Below, one piece after another: positions 19,899-33,432 of a stretch of DNA of 35,206 nucleotides; the stretch's first letter is position 1, and each line of letters starts with the position of its first letter. A program made the position numbers and the translations under genes. Where the stretch lies: the IMG/VR virus record IMGVR_UViG_3300010158_000187, positions 1-35,206 of that record; one strand, 5' to 3'. This DNA comes from a virus. Under the pieces are notes generated by a model. It did not search any database. It was not told the DNA's origin and worked only from the letters and a program-made list of their open reading frames with translations.

Positions 19899-20813
19899 AT
19901 GACTATCGGATTATTGCCAAGAAAAACAAAATATTTAAATAATCGAGATTTACTAGCAGAAATACACAGAAGCAAATGCTCATATTCCAGTTTTGAAAAA
20001 CCAGAATATCACCAATACGATATTATCCTAACCAGCCTAGATAAAGTTAACATACGTACTGTTGCCGACGCCAAACGAACCCAGGCCAAACGTCTAGGAC
20101 TACACGCATTCGCAGCAGCAAGAATGTCCGGAGATAAGAAAATCAAACTGTCAGAATGCACAGCAGATTATAAAACTATCGCAAAAACGGATATAATCAT
20201 CCGGATAATGACATTTGATCACATACCGTTAGCACCGGGTCGTAAGAAAACCACTAAAACCACAGCAGACAGTCATGATAAGGTAAACTTTCCTCCTTAT
20301 CAACATTGGAAGTTTGACGATCAAGATGAATTGGTATGTATTGGTAAAAGCCATTGGAAAGGATCTGTATCCTCTGGTAAATTCAGTAAGGATCACGGAC
20401 GTATTACCGAGAATCTCGGTAAGATGTTTATTAAATTGTCCGAGCGTTATGCCCAGCGTAGCAATTGGAGAGGATATACCTATGTGGACGAAATGAAAGG
20501 TCAGGCCATCCTACAACTAAGTCAAATTGGACTACAGTTTGATGAAAGTAAATCAGAGAATCCCTTTGCTTACTATACTGCTGCCGTAACCAATTCATTC
20601 ACAAGAATTTTAAATTTAGAAAAGAAGAGTCAAAACATACGTGATGATCTGTTAGAAGAAGCGGGTCTTACTCCTAGTCTTACCAGACAAAATAGTCAAG
20701 AGTATGCTAGCGAAATTGCTAGACAGGCCGAACTATACAAAAATATGCGTATGCCCAAGAGTGAAGAAATATCCGAAGAAGAAGAAATAGAAGACGGTAA
20801 TATTGAAGATTGA
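19899..20813 (+). CDS. 55: Late-transcription sigma factor gp55-like with N-terminal extension
   Basis: 304 residues; T4 gp55 is 185. The C-terminal half (from about residue 165: RITENLGKMFIKLSERYAQR, YTYVDEMKGQAILQLSQIGL, ENPFAYYTAAVTNSFTRILN) matches the gp55 sigma region 2-like core, including the NPFAY(Y/F) segment. gp55 binds host core polymerase and recognises the TATAAATA element. The N-terminal ~155 residues contain a separate-looking block (KPEYHQYDIILTSLDKVNIR, basic segment AKRTQAKRLGLHAF, then PLAPGRKKTTKTTADSHDK) that T4 gp55 lacks. The end is very acidic (EEISEEEEIEDGN), which may correspond to the clamp-binding tail region. First gene of a five- or six-gene plus-strand operon. 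Confidence 0.88.
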   Translation: MTIGLLPRKTKYLNNRDLLAEIHRSKCSYSSFEKPEYHQYDIILTSLDKVNIRTVADAKRTQAKRLGLHAFAAARMSGDKKIKLSECTADYKTIAKTDIIIRIMTFDHIPLAPGRKKTTKTTADSHDKVNFPPYQHWKFDDQDELVCIGKSHWKGSVSSGKFSKDHGRITENLGKMFIKLSERYAQRSNWRGYTYVDEMKGQAILQLSQIGLQFDESKSENPFAYYTAAVTNSFTRILNLEKKSQNIRDDLLEEAGLTPSLTRQNSQEYASEIARQAELYKNMRMPKSEEISEEEEIEDGNIED

Positions 20814-20857: not shown

Positions 20858-21871
20858 ATGCCATTGTTTAAGAAGGTAGCGTGTTTCACCGATATTCACT
20901 TCGGTCTAAAATCTAATAGTATAACGCATTTAAGAGATTGTGAAGAATTCGTAGACTGGTTTATTCAAGAAGCCAAGACCGCAGGGTGTGAAACTGCGAT
21001 CTTCTTGGGTGACTGGAGTCATAATCGTAACAGTCTAAACTTATTCACACTAGACAGCAGTTTACGCTGCCTTGAAAAACTAGGCGCGGCATTTGAACAG
21101 TTTTTTTGGTTTCCGGGCAACCACGATCTGTTCTACAAAGACAAGCGTGACATTCATTCGAGTGCTTTTGGTCGGCACATTCCAGGCGTCACTGTTGTAG
21201 ACAGTATATGGACCCGGGATGATGTCACACTTGTACCTTGGCTAATAGGCGATGAGTGGAAGTCTATGAAAGACATTAAGAGCAAATATGTATTTGGTCA
21301 CTTCGAATTACCCAAGTTCTTTATGAACGCTATGGTACAAATGCCCGATCACGGTGAACTTAGAGCAGAGGATTTTAACGGTCCAGACTATATATTCAGT
21401 GGACACTTCCATAAACGACAAGAAAACAACAAGGTGATCTACATCGGTAATGCGTTTCCCCACAATTACAGTGATTCGTGGGACGATGCTAGAGGTATGA
21501 TGACATTAGAATGGGGTGGCGATCCTGAATTTATCGACTGGCCCAACTGTCCCAAGTATCGTACCATTAAATTAAGTGATCTTATTGATCGCAAAGACGA
21601 TGTAATGAAAAGCAAAATGCATTTCAGAGTCAATCTTGATATTGATATCAGCTTTGAGGAAGCAAACTTTATCAAAGAAACATTTATTGCCGAGCATGAC
21701 ATACGAGAAATCAGTCTAGTACAGGATAAAAACAATCTAGAGGGGTCAGTGGATGAAAACACCGATGCTAGATTTGAAAGTGTTGATCAGATTGTTACGG
21801 AACAGCTGGTTAATATTGATTCAGGAAACTTTGATGTCGCTACCTTGTTAGAAATTTATAACAATCTATGA
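20858..21871 (+). CDS. 47: Recombination endonuclease subunit gp47 (Mre11-like)
   Basis: 337 residues, the usual length. Calcineurin-like phosphoesterase motifs are intact: TDIHFG (D12, H14), FLGDWSHNR (D52), FPGNHD (N88, H89), FGHFELP and SGHFHKRQ. With gp46 it forms the SbcCD/Mre11-Rad50 type complex that processes DNA ends for recombination-dependent replication and helps degrade host DNA. A good AGGAG ribosome binding site lies before the ATG. Its stop overlaps the gp46 start (ATGA), the usual coupling. Confidence 0.97.
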   Translation: MPLFKKVACFTDIHFGLKSNSITHLRDCEEFVDWFIQEAKTAGCETAIFLGDWSHNRNSLNLFTLDSSLRCLEKLGAAFEQFFWFPGNHDLFYKDKRDIHSSAFGRHIPGVTVVDSIWTRDDVTLVPWLIGDEWKSMKDIKSKYVFGHFELPKFFMNAMVQMPDHGELRAEDFNGPDYIFSGHFHKRQENNKVIYIGNAFPHNYSDSWDDARGMMTLEWGGDPEFIDWPNCPKYRTIKLSDLIDRKDDVMKSKMHFRVNLDIDISFEEANFIKETFIAEHDIREISLVQDKNNLEGSVDENTDARFESVDQIVTEQLVNIDSGNFDVATLLEIYNNL

Positions 21872-23649
21872 CCTTTCTAATTAAAAATTTAACTGTACGA
21901 AACTTTATGAGTGTGGGTAACCAGACTCAAGCAGTGGACTTTAAGAAACAGGCACTGACATTGGTGCTAGGATCTAACCTCGACCTGGGTGGAGATGACA
22001 CTGGATCGCGTAACGGCACGGGTAAAACTACCATTATCAATGCGTTGAGTTACGCTTTGTATGGGCAGGCTCTCACAAACATACGCAAAGAAAACTTGAT
22101 CAACAAGATCAATGGCAAAGCCATGTTGGTTACTGTAGAATTTGAAAAAAGTGGTGTTAATTACCGTATTGAAAGGGGACGTAAGCCCAATGTACTCAAG
22201 CTATTTGTCAATGATAACCAGTTAAAAACTGAAGAATCCGAAGACGATAGCCAAGGAGACAGCAGAGAAACACAGAAGGCCATTGAGCAAATGCTAGAGA
22301 TGAGCCATACCATGTTCAAGCATCTGGTTGCGTTAAACACCTATACAGAGCCATTTTTGTCAATGAAGGCTGCTGATCAACGAGAAGTTATTGAACAACT
22401 TCTGGGTATCACTCAGCTGAGCGAAAAAGCAGAAGTACTCAAGTCGCAGATCAAAGAAACCAAAGATTCTATACAGGTAGAAGAATTCAGGATCGGCGGC
22501 GTTAAGATTGCCAACGAAAATGTACAGAAAAGTATTGATAGTCTTGAGATAAAGAGTAGTGCGTGGGAAACAAAGAAGACCACAGATATAGAAAATATTG
22601 GTCGTGCCATGATGCGGCTTGAAACTGTTGATATTGAAGCAGAATTACGAGCACATCAGCAACTTAAGATATGGCTTGAGCACAATACCCGAGTTCAAAA
22701 CTTACAAAAGCAACGAGCAACTTTAGATTCCGCACTAGGACATGCTGAAAGAAGTGTTAAGAAGTATGAGAAGGAACTGGCAAGTCTTGCAAATAAAACA
22801 TGTCATGCTTGCGAACAGGAACTTCACGATCATAAGCATGAAGAAATGTCTGCGCTGGCTCAGGCACAGCTAGACGAAGCTTTGAAATATTTTGATAAAA
22901 TATCTCAAGACTTACAAAAGATCTTGGATGAGATTGGCAACGGGGATACACCACACAAACCGTTGACGTTTTATGACACCGAAGCAGAGGCATTAGGACA
23001 CAAGAACAACTTGGATGGACTTGAACGCAATCTAACCTCTAGGATTGACGAATTAAATCCTTACCAAGAACAGGTACAGGAACTGAAAAAGACAGCCATA
23101 CAAGAAGTTAATTGGGATACTATTAATTCTTTGACCAAACTCAAAGATCATCAAGAGTTCTTGCACAAACTATTAACCAACAAAGATAGTTTCATCCGTA
23201 AAAAGATAATTGATCAGAATTTAAATTATCTCAACAAGCGGCTGACCTACTATATTGACAAACTTGGATTACCTCACCAGGTTGTATTCCAAAACGACCT
23301 TACTGTTGAGATCACACAGCTGGGACAAGACCTAGATTTTGATAATCTAAGTCGAGGTGAACGCAACAGATTGATACTGAGTATGAGTTTTGCTTTCCGA
23401 GATGTTTGGGAAGGATTGTATCAGCATATCAATTTATTGTTTATTGACGAACTGGTCGATGCCGGAATGGATGCTGCGGGTGTGGAAAGTGCCCTGGCGG
23501 TTCTAAAGAAGATGGCCAGAGAACGCAATAAGAATATATACTTGATATCACACAAGGACGAGCTAGTGGGCAGGGTAAACAATGTGCTTCGAGTAATCAA
23601 AGAAAATGGTTTTACCTCCTACAGCAACGATGTAGACTATGTCGACTGA
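21868..23649 (+). CDS. 46: Recombination endonuclease subunit gp46 (Rad50/SbcC-like ATPase)
   Basis: 593 residues, near T4 gp46 (560). Walker A GSRNGTGKTT (46-55), ABC signature LSRGERNR (494-501), Walker B LLFIDEL (523-529), followed by a D-loop-like DAGMDAAG. The central coiled coil carries a zinc hook CHAC at 312-315. Partner of gp47; the two are adjacent and overlap by 4 bases. The gene end overlaps the next start by 11 bases. Confidence 0.97.
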   Translation: MTFLIKNLTVRNFMSVGNQTQAVDFKKQALTLVLGSNLDLGGDDTGSRNGTGKTTIINALSYALYGQALTNIRKENLINKINGKAMLVTVEFEKSGVNYRIERGRKPNVLKLFVNDNQLKTEESEDDSQGDSRETQKAIEQMLEMSHTMFKHLVALNTYTEPFLSMKAADQREVIEQLLGITQLSEKAEVLKSQIKETKDSIQVEEFRIGGVKIANENVQKSIDSLEIKSSAWETKKTTDIENIGRAMMRLETVDIEAELRAHQQLKIWLEHNTRVQNLQKQRATLDSALGHAERSVKKYEKELASLANKTCHACEQELHDHKHEEMSALAQAQLDEALKYFDKISQDLQKILDEIGNGDTPHKPLTFYDTEAEALGHKNNLDGLERNLTSRIDELNPYQEQVQELKKTAIQEVNWDTINSLTKLKDHQEFLHKLLTNKDSFIRKKIIDQNLNYLNKRLTYYIDKLGLPHQVVFQNDLTVEITQLGQDLDFDNLSRGERNRLILSMSFAFRDVWEGLYQHINLLFIDELVDAGMDAAGVESALAVLKKMARERNKNIYLISHKDELVGRVNNVLRVIKENGFTSYSNDVDYVD

Positions 23650-24191: not shown

Positions 24192-24620
24192 ATGACTTGG
24201 TACCATAAAGGTTCTATAGTTACAGAACTGCCTGAAGATTGTGTGGGGTTTGTTTATCTCATCTCATGCAACATTTCTGGCAGACTCTACGTTGGTAAAA
24301 AATTAGCAAAATTTAGTCGAACCGCCTACAAGACTGTAAAGTTGAAGAACGGCACAAAAAAGAAAAAGAAAATTAGAAGCAAAATAGATAGTGACTGGCA
24401 GGAATATTACGGGTCCAGTGCGGAACTTACCGCAGACATAGAAAAATTAGGCAAAGAAAATTTCACAAGAGAGATATTACACTACTGTCGTAGTAAAGCA
24501 GAAACATCATACATTGAGGCCCGTGAACAATTCGACCGCAAAGTATTGGAATCAAACGAATATTATAACGGACAGATCTCAGTCCGTGTCCATGGCTCCC
24601 ACATAATTAAAAAACCCTAG
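24192..24620 (+). CDS. GIY-YIG family nuclease (putative)
   Basis: 142 residues, starting 3 bases after the H1-like stop. GFVYLIS (19-25) and RLYVGKK (31-37) are the two strands of the GIY-YIG core with the usual spacing. A later YIEAREQFDRKVL segment could give the metal-binding Glu. A Lys-rich insert (KLKNGTKKKKKIRSKI) interrupts the core between about residues 50 and 66. No DNA-recognition domain follows, so it resembles the small T4-like Seg/hypothetical nuclease group rather than a full homing enzyme. It is immediately followed by the structured non-coding region. Confidence 0.78.
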   Translation: MTWYHKGSIVTELPEDCVGFVYLISCNISGRLYVGKKLAKFSRTAYKTVKLKNGTKKKKKIRSKIDSDWQEYYGSSAELTADIEKLGKENFTREILHYCRSKAETSYIEAREQFDRKVLESNEYYNGQISVRVHGSHIIKKP

Positions 24621-24962
24621 GCTCAGTTAATCGGTAAAAGCTCGCGCAGGCTAATTTCATGCGCCCGGAAACCTGGATTTTGGATCACAGGGAGGGAAAT
24701 CTCTTGCCGATAAGAGTGCTCAACTACTACCCGAAAGGATGAAGATCGCTACCAAGACCTGCGATTTAGTTGTTTGAAGATGAATGTATAGGCAAAAAGA
24801 AGGGAGAAAAACCCTGGGTTTACAATATGATAGCGTATATTTGTAAACTGCCGTTGTATGAAGACGGAGCTCGTGGTACCGGACAACCGCCACTGTAATG
24901 CTCCAACGCTGTGTGACTGTTCGAACTCGGATAATGTCTTTTTTCGCCCTTGAGCGGGCGAA
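24621..24962 (+). ncRNA. Candidate structured RNA, unassigned family
   Basis: About 340 GC-enriched bases (around half G+C in the first 100, against roughly 38 percent in the genes by eye) with dense complementary arms. ATCGGTAAAAG (24630-24640) pairs with CTCTTGCCGAT (24701-24711) and encloses hairpins GCGCA/TGCGC (24644-24648/24660-24664) and CCTG/CAGG. CAACTA/TAGTTG (24721-24726/24767-24772) encloses ATCGC/GCGAT (24745-24749/24761-24765) and a GAAA-tetraloop mini-hairpin. Further stems are AGGG/CCCT, GTTTACAA/TTGTAAAC (24818-24825/24841-24848), GGAGC/GCTCC (24866-24870/24900-24904) enclosing GTGG...CGG-ACAA-CCG-CCAC, and TTCGCCC/GGGCGAA (24943-24949/24956-24962). The beginning GGCTCAGTTAATCGGTAAAAGC looks like a tRNA D-arm, but no tRNA follows. 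I do not recognise the family. Strand is inferred from neighbours and the GAAA loop. Confidence 0.6.
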
Positions 24963-25063
24963 GTGTGACCAAGGAATCTGGATAATATTAATTCGTCTCA
25001 TAGACGAAGTAAAATGCTCTGAGTGCGAACGAAAGAGCAAATGAGCGTTAGCTCATTATATAA
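24963..25063 (+). other. Three-hairpin spacer upstream of a late promoter
   Basis: Three consecutive hairpins: TTCGTCT/AGACGAA (24992-24998/25002-25008), TGCTCT/AGAGCA (25015-25020/25034-25039) and the perfect AATGAGC-GTTA-GCTCATT (25040-25057). The last is terminator-like in shape but is followed by an AT-alternating tract rather than a T run. They may be the 3' part of the structured RNA or act as a processing or termination zone insulating the recombination operon from the next gene. Confidence 0.5.
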
Positions 25064-25071
25064 TATAAATA
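25064..25071 (+). promoter_or_regulatory. Late promoter TATAAATA
   Basis: Exact match to the T4 late consensus, 24 bases before the ATG of the next gene, with AAGGAAA as ribosome binding site in the leader. Best late promoter on the plus strand in this window. Confidence 0.75.
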
Positions 25072-25095
25072 AAAGATGATAAGGAAATTACTCTC

Positions 25096-25791
25096 ATGCG
25101 TATAAATGAATTACTCAGTGAAGAACAACTTGACGAAATAAGTCTCGGAAAAAGAATTGCTGCAAAAGCAGCACGATTTGCTCAAGGAGCCGGCGATGTT
25201 ATTGGCGGTACACTTGGAGGAATTGCCGGGGCATGGAACAGAGGAGAGAAGGCTTATCAAAGAGGAAAATCTGTAGTTGATCCTTCAGGCAATCCAGGAT
25301 CAGCAGGCGGAACAACCACTACTACTGCTACCGGTACTACAACAACAGGTGGAACAAACGCAGCAGTGCCGGCCGCTGCCGCAGCACCTGCAGGAACAAC
25401 AGATCCAACTGCTGCCGCAGCACCGGCTGCTGGAACAAATCCTGCTCCTGAAGCGCCGGCAGGAACAAATACAGGTGGTACCAGTTATGATACACAGGCA
25501 GGAAAACCTCAAAGTGCTCCAGGTAATAGACAAAAAGGTGATATAGTTAGATCTGGGCAAAATACATTCCAATACACAGGCGAACCTGGAAAAGAATGGT
25601 TTGTTGCCAGCGGTCCACTACAAGAACCAAATCCTCAAGCAGATAGATATAACAACATTCAAGCTGTTGGTGGTAAGAAATTTATCAGCGCAGACAATGC
25701 CAAACGCAATCTACAAGTTTCAGAGCGTAAGAAGCTGAAAAAGAAAATTGTTGCCGAATTCCACAGCAACTTCCTAGGCATGATAATTTAA
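25096..25791 (+). CDS. Candidate internal head / virion protein with capsid-targeting-like N-terminus
   Basis: 231 residues; I do not recognise a named family. The N-terminus MRINELLSEEQLDEI resembles a T4 capsid-targeting peptide: a short amphipathic helix ending in the gp21 cleavage form (L/I)-x-E (LSE or LDE). Residues 15-60 are basic and helical with a Gly/Ala-rich hydrophobic stretch (AGDVIGGTLGGIAGAW). Residues about 65-135 are a low-complexity Ala/Thr/Pro/Gly linker. The C-terminal part has a compact aromatic segment (TFQYTGEPGKEWFVASGP) and ends in a basic helix (SERKKLKKKIVAEFHSNF). It has its own late promoter, fitting a structural protein. Its stop overlaps the stop of the convergent gene. 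Confidence 0.82.
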   Translation: MRINELLSEEQLDEISLGKRIAAKAARFAQGAGDVIGGTLGGIAGAWNRGEKAYQRGKSVVDPSGNPGSAGGTTTTTATGTTTTGGTNAAVPAAAAAPAGTTDPTAAAAPAAGTNPAPEAPAGTNTGGTSYDTQAGKPQSAPGNRQKGDIVRSGQNTFQYTGEPGKEWFVASGPLQEPNPQADRYNNIQAVGGKKFISADNAKRNLQVSERKKLKKKIVAEFHSNFLGMII

Positions 25792-26956: not shown

Positions 26957-29900
26957 ATGGCAGACGTAACAGGTCAAATAATAGGCGATCCACAGAGTAA
27001 CACCAAAGATGTTCGGCTGAACAACGCAGCCACGGAGGCCACATTAAAAGCACTACTGAATACTGCTAATATAGATTCAGCAGTATTAAGAGAAATTGCT
27101 GCTAACGCAGGTGTTGACCGAGATATTTTAGCCGGTTTGGAGGCTGCTGCTGTTGCAAGTTCTGCCGGCCTCCAACAGGTTACAGTATCTACGCAGCAAT
27201 TAACTGTTTCTCAAAATAATCTAAAAGAGCATAATCGACTTGTAGATACATCATTTGCTGGATTAATTGACAGTACCCGACTATTAGCATCGGGTAATGC
27301 AACTGTAAGTGGTGTATTGGACGCATTTAAACTCTTGCCAGGGCCGTTGGGACTTGTGGCACAAGGATTTTCCGCACTAGCAGCATTCCAAGAAACCAAT
27401 ATGAAGACATATCAAACTATGTCAAGTGCTGGTGCTAACTTTGGTGGCAGTCTAACAGACATGCGATTAGCGGCACAGGGCACTTTTGTGGATTTACAAA
27501 CATTTGGAAATCTAGTTAAAAACAACAGTCAAGTTTTAGGCAGAATGGGCGGTACTGTTGATGATGGTGCTAGAGCATTTGCTGCTATGAGCAATAGTTT
27601 ATTAACTAGTCAAGCAGGTGAAAATCTGTTAGCACTGGGATATACTACCGAAGATGTTAATCAGGGTATGTTAAGTTATATAGCAACAACGGGTGGCCGC
27701 TCAAAAGAAGAAATGAAAAATACTCAGTCTATTACTGCAGCCACGTCTGAGTATCTAACAGAGTTGGATAAGTTAACACAATTTAGTGGTATTAGTAGAA
27801 AACAACAAGAAGAAGAACAAAAGAAAGCTGCTCTTAATGGTGCTTATCAACGAGCATTAGCTAACATGACAGAAGATCAAAAAGCTAGAGCGGAAATTGC
27901 TAGAACAGCAGCTGCAAATTCTGGAGTAGTAGGAGCTGCAGACGCATTAATGGCCAACGTGGCTGGTTTTCCTCCTATTACTAAAGAAGCACAACAATTT
28001 GCTGGCATGCTACCCTACGCCTATAATGGTATAGAAACGTTAGGAAATTCTGTTCGTGATGTACATGGCACAATGGCAGATACTGAAAAAGGTATTGGTG
28101 TATTCAATGAAGGAGTATATAGATCTGCAAAAGGTGCTGAAACTGCATTTAGTGCTGTGGCCATGGGTGGCAATCAGGTTGCTAATAGTGCTCTTTTAGC
28201 CGGTATTCAATTAGAAAAAAGTGGTAATAATACAGCAGAAGGAACTGCTAAGAATCTTGCCAAGGCAACAGATAATCAAAAAACTCAACAAGCAAGTCAA
28301 GCAGCCACAATGGCCAAAGCAGAAATTCAACTTAAAGAATTTGGCCTGGCTATCATGAAATTGATATCTCCAATCATAAGTGTTCTAACTCCTGTGTTGA
28401 CATACCTAGGTCCGTTGTTTATAGGATTAAGTGTCGCAGTAATGGGATATAAAGCATGGTTACTAGCTCTTGAAACTTTTGAAAGAGCCAAAGTAGCAAG
28501 AGACCTGGCTAGAGAATCAGGCGGCGGTGCTCTTACCGCTGCTAGAAACTTTGTTAATTTAGGAGGAAGTCCTGCTGCCTCGGTAGTACCGGGTGCTGCT
28601 GCTGCACCACCCGGCGGCGGTATATTGGGCGGAGTGCTGGGCAGCTTGGCCGAAGGTTTGAAAAAAATGGGTAATCCTCAAGTGTTACTGGGTATTGTTG
28701 CTGTTGGATTGCTAGGCGGTGCCATGATGGTAGCAGGTAAAGCATTTAAAGAGTTTACCGGTGTTAACTGGGGAGATGTACTGATAGGGTCTGTGGTATT
28801 GACAGCACTGTCAATTGGCGCAGCAGCATTGGTTGAGATCGCTCCTTTCATAGGCATAACTGCTGTAGCCATAGGATTGCTTGGTGGTGCTATATGGTTA
28901 CTGGCCAAGGGACTCAAAGAGTTTCCAACTTTTGCCATACCCGGTATGTCGGAAGCATTTGAAGGATTTGGAAAAATAGTCGGAACCGTATTTGGGTTTG
29001 TAGGCGATGTAGTATCAGGCTTGATAGATACTGTTAAAAAAGTATTTGGAACTGTATGGGATATCATATCATGGCCTTTTAAAATGATAGGTAATTTAAT
29101 ATCGGGTACTGTTGATGTTGTGACCAGTATACTAGGAGGACTAGTAAACATTGTCACAGGTATATTTGGTACCATGTGGAATATCGTATCATGGCCTTTC
29201 AAGCAGTTAGGTAATTTAATATCAGGCACTGTTGATGTTGTGACCAGTATACTAGGAGGAATGGTAGATATCATCACAGGTATATTTGGTCTAGTGTGGA
29301 ATATCGTATCATGGCCTTTTAAACAACTGGGTAATCTAGTATCGGGTACAGTAAGTGTTATTGCTACTATTCTAGGAGGAATGGTAGATATAGTAACAGG
29401 ATTATTTGGTATCTTATGGAACGTGGTGTCGTGGCCTTTCAAGCAGTTAGGTAATTTAATATCGGGTACAGTAAGTGTTATTGCTACTATTCTAGGAGGA
29501 ATGGTAGATATCATCACAGGTATATTTGGTCTAGTGTGGAATATCGTATCATGGCCTTTTAAACAACTGGGTAATCTAGTATCGGGTACTATTAATATCG
29601 TAACAGGAATTTTAGGCGGAATCGTAGATGGTATTTCTGCTATATTTGGCACGGTATGGAATATAATATCATGGCCGTTTAAACAATTAGGTAATCTAAT
29701 ATCAGGTACTGGTGATTCTACAACTGGACTATTTGGCGGAATGCTAAACACGGTTACAAGTATATTTGGTGCTGTATGGAATATCATATCCTGGCCTTTC
29801 AAGCAGTTAGGTAATCTAGTATCGGGCACAGTCAATGTCGTGGCCAGTATACTAGGAGGGCTAGTAAACATTGTTACAGGCATATTTGGTACCATGTGGA

Positions 29901-31213
29901 ATATTATATCCTGGCCTTTCAAACAGATAGGCAATCTAGTATCATCGGCTGTAGATAGTATCACAGGTGTATTTGGCAGCATGGTAGATGGTATTACTGG
30001 CTTATTTGGCAAGATAGGAGATGCGATATCAGCACCATTTACTTCAATTGGTAATCTAGTATCGGGTGTAGCAGATGCTGTTGCCGGTATATTTGGTGGC
30101 ATGGTAGATGGTATATCCGGCGCATTTGGTTCAGTATGGACGGTGATATCAGCACCATTTACCATGATCGGGGATTTAGTATCATCGGTTGTGGATGGTA
30201 TCACTAGTGTATTTGGTGGCATGGTAGACATTATATCTGGAGCATTTGGTACAGTATGGGGTGCGATATCATCTCCGTTTACTATGGTTGGTGATTTAGT
30301 ATCATCGGTTGTAGATGGTATCACTGGAGTATTTGGTGGAATGGTGGACAGTATCTCAGGAATATTTGGTACAGTATGGGATATTATATCATCACCATTT
30401 ACCATGATTGGTGATTTAGTATCATCGGTTGTAGATGGTATTACTGGAGTATTTGGTGGAATGGTTGACATTATCTCAGGTGTATTTGGTATAGTATGGG
30501 ATGCGATATCAGCGCCATTTACCATGATTGGTGATTTAGTATCATCTGTGTTTGATGGTATTGCCGGAGTATTCAGCGGAATAGTAGACAGTATCTCCGG
30601 TGCGTTTGGTATAGTATGGGATATAATGTCAGCACCATTTAGAATGATTGGTGATTTGGTATCATCTGTGTTTGATGGCATATCGGCTGCTATATCATTT
30701 GTGGTAGATAAACTTACCAATATACTGGGCATGATTGGCGATGTTATTGGCGGAATAGCAGGATTTGTTGGAAGTTTATTTGGCGGAGGCGATGAAGCCA
30801 AAGAAGGATCCGGACCAGGGTCACCGGAATTTACTGAGGCAACTTCTACTCTATTAGAAGCTGCTAATAAACTTGGTTCAGTAAGTGACAAACTAGCAAC
30901 TGTTAATTTAGGCCCACGACAAGATGCTCTACCCGGATCAACGGCATTTGATAGTATATTTAAAATGGCCCTAACAGCATCTTCAGTCAAGAAAGAAACA
31001 GCAGATTTGCCTCCTCTGTCAGAAGGGGCTAAAAAATTATCTGCTGGCCTGTTCGGCGATAAAGGACCTAGCCTGGAAGAAAAAACACATACTGAGCTAG
31101 TTTCCTTAAATACTACGATGAAAGATCTATTGAGATATATCAAGGATACAGCAGACAATACCAAGAAAACTCACGAGGCTACTAAAAGTCTTAACGGTAA
31201 TGCATTCGCTTAA
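26957..31213 (+). CDS. Tail tape-measure protein (gp29 role) with 14 tandem 40-residue repeats
   Basis: 1418 residues against about 590 for T4 gp29. Residues 1-450 are Ala/Gln/Asn-rich and helical. Hydrophobic segments occur near 463-498 (IMKLISPIISVLTPVLTYLG), 576-595 and 610-650. Residues 696-1255 are fourteen copies of a 40-residue unit of the form (I/V/A)FG-x-x-W-(N/D)-x-(I/V)-S-W/A/S-PF-x-x-(I/L)-G-(N/D)-L-(V/I)-S followed by a GGMVD(I/G)I(T/S)G end. The C-terminus is a helical tail. Size, hydrophobic segments, repeats and the neighbouring chaperone pair point to the tape measure, which sets tail length and is ejected into the host envelope. Identification is by architecture, not by clear homology to gp29. 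The antisense strand is open for 828 codons here as a by-product of the repeats. Confidence 0.85.
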   Translation: MADVTGQIIGDPQSNTKDVRLNNAATEATLKALLNTANIDSAVLREIAANAGVDRDILAGLEAAAVASSAGLQQVTVSTQQLTVSQNNLKEHNRLVDTSFAGLIDSTRLLASGNATVSGVLDAFKLLPGPLGLVAQGFSALAAFQETNMKTYQTMSSAGANFGGSLTDMRLAAQGTFVDLQTFGNLVKNNSQVLGRMGGTVDDGARAFAAMSNSLLTSQAGENLLALGYTTEDVNQGMLSYIATTGGRSKEEMKNTQSITAATSEYLTELDKLTQFSGISRKQQEEEQKKAALNGAYQRALANMTEDQKARAEIARTAAANSGVVGAADALMANVAGFPPITKEAQQFAGMLPYAYNGIETLGNSVRDVHGTMADTEKGIGVFNEGVYRSAKGAETAFSAVAMGGNQVANSALLAGIQLEKSGNNTAEGTAKNLAKATDNQKTQQASQAATMAKAEIQLKEFGLAIMKLISPIISVLTPVLTYLGPLFIGLSVAVMGYKAWLLALETFERAKVARDLARESGGGALTAARNFVNLGGSPAASVVPGAAAAPPGGGILGGVLGSLAEGLKKMGNPQVLLGIVAVGLLGGAMMVAGKAFKEFTGVNWGDVLIGSVVLTALSIGAAALVEIAPFIGITAVAIGLLGGAIWLLAKGLKEFPTFAIPGMSEAFEGFGKIVGTVFGFVGDVVSGLIDTVKKVFGTVWDIISWPFKMIGNLISGTVDVVTSILGGLVNIVTGIFGTMWNIVSWPFKQLGNLISGTVDVVTSILGGMVDIITGIFGLVWNIVSWPFKQLGNLVSGTVSVIATILGGMVDIVTGLFGILWNVVSWPFKQLGNLISGTVSVIATILGGMVDIITGIFGLVWNIVSWPFKQLGNLVSGTINIVTGILGGIVDGISAIFGTVWNIISWPFKQLGNLISGTGDSTTGLFGGMLNTVTSIFGAVWNIISWPFKQLGNLVSGTVNVVASILGGLVNIVTGIFGTMWNIISWPFKQIGNLVSSAVDSITGVFGSMVDGITGLFGKIGDAISAPFTSIGNLVSGVADAVAGIFGGMVDGISGAFGSVWTVISAPFTMIGDLVSSVVDGITSVFGGMVDIISGAFGTVWGAISSPFTMVGDLVSSVVDGITGVFGGMVDSISGIFGTVWDIISSPFTMIGDLVSSVVDGITGVFGGMVDIISGVFGIVWDAISAPFTMIGDLVSSVFDGIAGVFSGIVDSISGAFGIVWDIMSAPFRMIGDLVSSVFDGISAAISFVVDKLTNILGMIGDVIGGIAGFVGSLFGGGDEAKEGSGPGSPEFTEATSTLLEAANKLGSVSDKLATVNLGPRQDALPGSTAFDSIFKMALTASSVKKETADLPPLSEGAKKLSAGLFGDKGPSLEEKTHTELVSLNTTMKDLLRYIKDTADNTKKTHEATKSLNGNAFA
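29042..30721 (+). repeat. 14 x 120-base tandem repeat array in the tape-measure gene
   Basis: The unit is exactly 120 bases (40 codons) with no indels across 1680 bases. Units 1-8 carry the form W-(N/D)-x-(I/V)-S-W-P-F-K; units 9-14 change to S-(A/S)-P-F-T or R and (G)DLVSS, so there are two sub-families. The stretches at 29252-29349 and 29492-29589 are identical over 98 bases, and 29341-29390 repeats at 29461-29510. Confidence 0.95.
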
Positions 31214-33002: not shown

Positions 33003-33005
33003 ATA
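32998..33005 (+). promoter_or_regulatory. Candidate late promoter CATAAATA
   Basis: NATAAATA match overlapping the portal stop codon, ending 7 bases before the next ATG. If used it would give an almost leaderless transcript of the small head-cluster gene. Confidence 0.35.
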
Positions 33006-33012
33006 TAATATT

Positions 33013-33258
33013 ATGTTGTTAAAAGAATTCATTTATTTTGATCGTGATCACGCAGATCTTCAGGATGACAATAGGTATCTCAGTAAAAATGATACTGGCA
33101 TATTAAAGAAAACTGACCTGCGTAAAACTCGATTAACACTAGGAATGATCAACAATATACGTCGTGCTGCCGAATCGCACGATAAAGAAAAACAGAAAGA
33201 GTTAGTGTTAATTAAGAAAATGTATGCTGCTCCGCCACCGGACGCAGCAGTTGCATAA
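33013..33258 (+). CDS. Small conserved head-cluster protein (between gp20 and the prohead core gene)
   Basis: 81 residues. The frame stays open further upstream, but the upstream codons lie inside the portal gene, so MLLKEFIYFDRD is the sensible start. The core DLRKTRLTLGMINNIRRAAE and the end KKMYAAPP resemble a short protein found after the portal in other aquatic T4-like phages (from memory). Its place corresponds to T4 gp67/gp68, but the sequence is basic and not like acidic T4 gp67. Possibly a minor core protein; function not assigned. No good ribosome binding site, so coupling to gp20 or leaderless translation is likely. Confidence 0.75.
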   Translation: MLLKEFIYFDRDHADLQDDNRYLSKNDTGILKKTDLRKTRLTLGMINNIRRAAESHDKEKQKELVLIKKMYAAPPPDAAVA

Positions 33259-33280
33259 ACTGATAGTTTAACTTTTTTTT
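33256..33280 (+). terminator. Weak intrinsic terminator after the small head-cluster gene
   Basis: TAAACT-GAT-AGTTTA stem (6 bp, includes the stop codon) followed by AC and eight Ts. The stem is AT-rich, so termination is likely partial. The next 150 bases up to the core gene hold GACAGAAA/GTCAGAAA repeats, a TGACA/TGTCA pair, a CTAAATA box (33289-33295) that is a weak late-promoter candidate, and AGGAG before the next ATG. Confidence 0.45.
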
Positions 33281-33432
33281 GACAGAAACTAAATATTTTT
33301 GTCAGAAACAGATTAAAAATTATCATCATTTTGGTCAAAACGGCTCGTTTTAGGCCTATTTCATATCGGTATTACACGAAGGTTGTAAATACAACACAGC
33401 CTTGCCGCAACTAATTTTAGGAGAAATACGCA

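Follow-up and report, generated by a model that had tools for sequence, protein, structure and literature searches.

Does the longest gene-free stretch of a phage genome fragment encode a functional RNA, and, if so, does that RNA belong to a known family? We addressed this question for a window comprising all 35,206 nucleotides of IMG/VR record IMGVR_UViG_3300010158_000187, which is a fragment of a T4-like phage carrying, among other genes, T4-type portal and prohead protease genes (Table 1). An earlier sequence-only reading had singled out this stretch as the only long one without genes, as GC-rich and dense in hairpins, and as a plausible large ornate phage RNA of unknown family. The gap is indeed the longest in the window (24621–25095, 475 nt); the other long gap (33003–33432) is mostly occupied by a 109-aa ORF. 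It is GC-rich only in moderation (44.7 versus 38.7% for the whole window, with 8% of equal-size windows equally rich). As for hairpins, the single-sequence fold is unremarkable (−129.7 kcal/mol; z −1.9; 5 of 100 shuffles fold equally well) and was uninformative for structure, whereas the helices do covary in relatives. Hairpins alone are a weak case for an RNA, and it is the comparison with relatives that decides.

Two observations concern the genes around the gap. An Hc1-like protein is encoded between the recombination genes and SegE, and many relatives keep an Hc1-like gene. Within the tape measure gene, an antisense open frame of 828 aa (28678–31164, minus strand) is probably an effect of composition.

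Extent and covarying structure of the RNA

Across the entire window, cmscan returned a sole Rfam match, RF01718 (Polynucleobacter-1), on the plus strand (24639–24775; 105.8 bits against a cut-off of 37; model positions 1–141 of 141). The family is therefore known for this part. The other two thirds, among them the 3′ core that is conserved most widely, have no match in Rfam 15; a known-family hit from an Rfam covariance search, which the sequence-only reading had named as evidence against itself, was found for the first 137 nt only. That reading had also seen no tRNA, tmRNA, RNase P, or group I core, which agrees with our searches: ARAGORN found no tRNA in the window, and cmscan gave RF01718 alone, with no curated-model match for tRNA, tmRNA, RNase P, group I/II introns, or self-cleaving ribozymes. 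Polynucleobacter-1 itself entered the literature as a single table row, listing a probable RNA of Burkholderiales from fresh water and estuary with the entries "cis-reg: y, switch: ?" (Weinberg et al., 2010; PMC2864571). In the literature searched, no further paper names the family, and no description of the 3′ two thirds was found.

Relatives were collected by searching IMG/VR with the baseplate hub protein (71 loci) and with two DNA patterns, taken from the 5′ and 3′ parts of the RNA, respectively, each of which gave at least 120 stretches. An RNA profile matched in 263 of 276 loci (hub loci plus the pattern matches listed), and at least 179 full-length copies occur among the matches listed (144 non-redundant at 95%; mean identity 65%). 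By blastn among the hub-found loci, the whole stretch is conserved to about 25074, beyond the Rfam part. The unit that is both conserved and covarying spans 24630 to about 25057 (about 430 nt), three times the Rfam part.

Covariation supports a single structure along this full length. A test in the manner of R-scape, in which the G statistic received an average-product correction and null alignments were simulated along the tree, gave 39 column pairs at E ≤ 0.05 over the whole length of the 144 non-redundant sequences. A separate alignment of 51 divergent relatives supports 19 helices with 93 pairs in all; these are 92.8% paired, and 65 of them change on both sides, amounting to 721 double-changed cells versus 205 in shuffles, with 0 of 500 shuffles as high; covariation in homologs was the check that the sequence-only reading had proposed. 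Pairing falls to 36–44% when partners are slid by 1–3 columns, a control that is somewhat flattering, the structure having been derived from overlapping sequences; the double changes are independent of that. G-U wobbles are conserved at 24744/24766 (142 of 144 sequences) and 24829/24836 (132 of 144), which shows that the plus-strand RNA itself is selected.

Two elements noticed earlier in the single sequence proved real, with covarying or invariant pairs: the bulged GTGG…CGG hairpin is P10/P11 (24867–24903), which contain the near-invariant GGTAC.GG..ACCGCC, and P4/P5/P6 (24721–24772) form the three-way junction with its GAAA loop. The sequence-only reading had missed three pseudoknots (PKa, PKb, and PKc) and the twin 7-nt words discussed below. 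PKa and P3 (helices 1 and 4) have 5/6 and 4/6 pairs, respectively, that change on both sides among the 51 relatives. Thus, a covarying, triple-pseudoknotted structure of about 430 nt in T4-like phages strongly supports the suggestion of a large ornate phage RNA, and RF01718 falls short of it as a 141-nt motif, since the covarying structure extends to 25057 and a pseudoknot reaches into the Rfam part.

Two further details emerged. All 144 sequences have a U,C or C,U combination at positions 24730/24740, which never form a standard pair, and the swap seems tied to loop type (GAAA or UUAACA). The terminal hairpin P16 is terminator-like on the minus strand only, where it faces the convergent hub gene; there is no plus-strand U-run.

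Table 1. Coordinates of the RNA, its structural elements, and surrounding genes in the window.
Feature	Position	Strand	Remarks
Late sigma factor	19899–20813		
SbcD/SbcC-like recombination genes	20858–23649		
Hc1-like small protein, 65 aa	23991–24188		PF07432, histone H1-like Hc1 family, E 2e-13
SegE-family GIY-YIG endonuclease	24192–24620	+	PF19835, E 4.8e-32; usual upstream neighbor of RNA, not required
Whole structured RNA, about 430 nt	24630–25057	+	Homology and covariation along full length
Pseudoknot PKa	24630–24635 with 24706–24711 (P3 loop)	+	Missing from Rfam structure
Rfam RF01718 part (5′ domain)	24639–24775	+	cmscan
Hairpin P2	24644–24664	+	98.7% paired, 5/6 pairs covary
Hairpin P2b	24672–24691	+	82.7% paired, 6/7 covary
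Hairpin P3	24699–24717	+	Loop 24706–24711 engaged in PKa
Three-way junction P4	24721–24726/24767–24772	+	99.0% paired, 5/6 covary; encloses P5, P6
P5	24731–24738	+	GAAA loop in window
P6	24744–24766	+	Inside P4
P7	24791–24793/24850–24852	+	Weakest helix, no double change; encloses P8, P9
Hairpin P8	24801–24815	+	Among helices 9–12
Long hairpin P9	24818–24848	+	Among helices 9–12
Pseudoknot PKb	24830–24835 (P9 loop) with 24907–24912	+	98.3% paired, 6/6 covary
Pseudoknot PKc	24853–24857 with 24883–24887	+	97.6% paired, 3/5 covary
Stem P10	24867–24870/24900–24903	+	Helices 15 and 16, with P11
Stem P11	24873–24876/24890–24893	+	Helices 15 and 16, with P10
First 7-nt word	24929–24935	+	GGATAAT in window; constant CTC flank
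Hairpin P14, between 7-nt words	24943–24962	+	Helix 17; majority register one column off window
Second 7-nt word	24980–24986	+	Constant TCT flank
Hairpin P15	25016–25038	+	Helix 18, 4/4 pairs covary
Terminal hairpin P16, ATGAGCGTTAGCTCAT	25040–25057	+	Helix 19, 6/7 covary; 3′ end of conserved unit
T4-type late promoter of downstream gene, TATAAATA	25064–25071	+	Outside RNA
Protein of no assigned family	25096–25791		Next gene after RNA
Baseplate hub protein	past the 25096–25791 gene	−	
Tape measure gene	26957–31213		
T4-type portal and prohead protease genes			Same window

Distribution and neighboring genes

Among uncultured T4-like phages, a large clade has the RNA as a core gene. Its 3′ core is present in 64 of the 64 hub-found loci that reach the site, at hub identities down to 33%, and in the seven hub-found loci without the RNA the sequence ends within 831 nt of the hub gene. 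The RF01718 model matches in 27 of 50 records and in 12 of 14 related phage records; the 3′ core also occurs in relatives that it misses, as seen with a core profile and a covariance model (R1) that reach beyond RF01718. The 5′ domain is the faster-evolving part of the RNA, and the 3′ core with its twin words is kept by every relative. The gene is single-copy where counted: whole-record searches gave one match per record having one, save for a second, marginal hit (E 0.067) in one record, and no fetched locus holds two copies. Carriers include three very large T4-like phage genomes of 262–355 kb (G056, G057, and G058).

Outside this clade, the core model had no match in ten cultured large phages (including T4, S-PM2, HTVC008M, and Melnitz), nor did blastn with three members against 50,697 phage records. 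The two exact DNA patterns found no real match in about 85,000 bacterial and archaeal species genomes; exact patterns can miss members, so a copy in Polynucleobacter may still exist. The 60 pattern matches in this genome collection were dismissed as chance, since the core profile matches none of them.

The genes beside the RNA are far less constant. In most loci the gene immediately upstream, on the same strand, is SegE, an arrangement that would suit a homing element in which the RNA works with the adjacent GIY-YIG endonuclease, as a guide RNA or the remnant of a mobile intron. However, the RNA is retained where SegE is replaced by a PDDEXK_15 nuclease (L222, L047, L048, L217, and L250) or by other genes (L095 and L269); four lineages use a TTG start, which was allowed for when SegE-less loci were listed. 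The endonuclease is thus not obligate, and SegE plus RNA as one mobile unit was rejected for the same reason. Moreover, the RNA always occupies the same genomic place in one copy, no Rfam intron family matches it, and SegE relatives occur in 498 cultured-phage records, six of which were searched as whole records and lack the RNA. We regard the homing element as quite unlikely; endonucleases that settle beside, and parasitize, a conserved RNA gene fit these patterns better. Two unrelated nuclease families occupy the same site beside the RNA (PF24608, that is, PDDEXK_15, was tested on the L047 protein).

Downstream, the variation bears on whether the RNA is a cis-regulatory leader (a 5′ UTR element, possibly a riboswitch) of the late gene that follows, as its 2010 table entry would have it and as would be natural in the window, where the next ORF lies on the same strand, as it does in 109 distinct cases among the matches listed. 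Against this, 78 distinct cases among the matches listed have their first downstream ORF on the opposite strand, where the RNA is not its leader, and the downstream proteins belong to unrelated families across loci, with the RNA unchanged. No constant same-strand position before a regulated gene, as expected of a riboswitch or cis-regulator, was found. The sequence-only reading had also placed a late promoter beyond the stretch; one was found in the window (Table 1), and 66 of the 234 loci among the matches listed have a T4-type late promoter between −50 and +80 relative to the RNA end (background 0.007), which indicates that the downstream gene has its own start. The 2010 cis-regulatory label, for its part, usually rested on a position upstream of genes (PMC2864571). 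The leader reading is, in our judgment, unlikely, and RF01718 is best described as the 5′ domain of a larger RNA that is differently distributed and probably not cis-regulatory.

Because neighbors change on both sides while the RNA stays, it is neither the leader of the next gene nor part of an endonuclease but a free-standing RNA that probably acts in trans. Since the gap between SegE and the RNA is usually 60 nt at most, the two might be co-transcribed, or the RNA might serve as part of a 3′ UTR.

The downstream proteins, unrelated in length and body, share a short N-terminus of the form M-K/R-I..ELL.E...L.E (the window's 25096–25791 gene and about 110 loci listed). It resembles a capsid-targeting leader of the T4 type, which the prohead protease would cut, and the site is possibly a variable locus of internal head proteins.

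Twin seven-nucleotide words

The 3′ core carries two 7-nt words, 51 nt apart in the window, that evolve in lockstep. Among the matches listed, the two words agree letter for letter in every one of 259 loci, with 12 versions of the word and spacings of 47–67 nt. For the four variable word positions, parsimony requires at least 51 joint changes, and a one-sided change occurs in no sequence. This identity is not an artefact of the 3′ search pattern, since it also holds in hub-found loci (62/62) and in 5′-pattern loci (112/112) among the matches listed. Copying of one repeat onto the other is argued against by flanks that are constant but different (CTC versus TCT). Watson–Crick pairs of the RNA that change at similar rates mostly show a few exceptions or G-U intermediates, unlike the words.

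A partner for the words was sought at several levels. The words are not complementary to each other, and neither has a complement within the RNA. Word complements are not enriched in the flanks (132 found versus 133 expected on one strand; 183 versus 170.5 on the other). No shared partner turned up in 91 gene families of seven large phage records, and none was seen in the alignable DNA of related records with different words, of which the best pair is 80% identical over 68 kb; joint changes in alignable phage DNA were confined to the RNA's own two copies, plus one single-base coincidence in another pair. A helix between the segments just before the words is weak (3.60 versus 3.29 in shuffles). 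An RNAalifold helix (24929–24932/24976–24979) was dropped, since lockstep changes at 24930 break its pairing uncompensated. The host, a phage gene outside the shared set, or a second copy of the RNA may supply the partner.

The last of these would make the words contacts between copies in a homo-oligomer or cage like those of GOLLD and ROOL. The RNA is, as in those systems, ornate, pseudoknotted, and phage-encoded, and its universal 3′ and variable 5′ parts recall GOLLD (PMC12286853). However, it is shorter than ROOL and GOLLD and has no sequence match to either, and ordinary kissing contacts fail to explain words that lack any complement in the RNA. Such an assembly is conceivable, if on the unlikely side.

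Identical direct repeats also resemble iterons, and T4-like phages use transcript-primed origins of replication; the stretch might then act as DNA, for instance as an origin primed from the RNA. Here, the conserved G-U wobbles show selection on the RNA strand itself, repeat spacing varies, and the cumulative GC skew of seven large phage records does not turn at the RNA, all of which makes a DNA-level element very improbable.

A probable trans-acting phage RNA and its known counterparts

The account that we favor, and hold to be probable, is of a free-standing, trans-acting non-coding RNA gene, core to its clade, whose product is a triple-pseudoknot particle with twin words that bind one partner twice. 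About 430 nt long and braced by the three pseudoknots, the folded RNA would be a compact particle that acts in trans during infection rather than on an adjacent mRNA. Its folded body would display the two identical words (24929–24935 and 24980–24986) single-stranded, each making an equivalent contact with one kind of partner: a pair of identical RNA or protein molecules or, alternatively, adjacent copies of this RNA within an oligomer. The words would evolve in lockstep because both sites must stay identical. As no word partner was found in the RNA, flanks, gene families, or alignable DNA, the trans-binding step, like transcription and action in trans, is one that we infer from sequence patterns.

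More tentatively, the RNA could be a bivalent phage core RNA—a triple-pseudoknotted body with two must-match words reading one partner—unlike any described class, with Polynucleobacter-1 as its 5′ domain only. What Rfam lists as a small RNA, and what the 2010 table took for a probable bacterial cis-regulator, appears to make up the 5′ third of a much larger RNA. This larger RNA matches the structural genes of a large uncultured phage clade in constancy, which redefines the RF01718 family and gives the short list of large ornate phage RNAs a further class. The identity of the word partner would show what this RNA does, at a time when the function of GOLLD and ROOL is still obscure.

Known systems offer partial counterparts. 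The phi29 pRNA, a phage packaging RNA, serves as a folded scaffold that functions in trans, a mode of action that the window RNA might share; it comes from another phage type, differs in size, and had no match in the Rfam scan of the window. GOLLD, with its conserved 3′ region and more variable 5′ region (PMC12286853), is likewise a large ornate phage RNA, though it exceeds 800 nt against about 430 nt here, and the window RNA does not lie beside a tRNA. ROOL is a phage or prophage RNA that also has several pseudoknots (PMC12286853); it measures 659 nt in the solved example and sits in another gene context. Neither matched by sequence or covariance (no cmscan match in the window even at E up to 5, and none in 13 divergent relatives at the gathering threshold), and by cmscan the RNA is a member of neither family. 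The closest relative is RF01718, whose whole model is matched within the window and whose helices P2–P6 are the same. That family ends at 24775, however; the conserved unit extends to three times the length, and of its three pseudoknots PKa lies largely inside the Rfam part. What had been listed as a bacterial cis-regulator is here a phage core gene.
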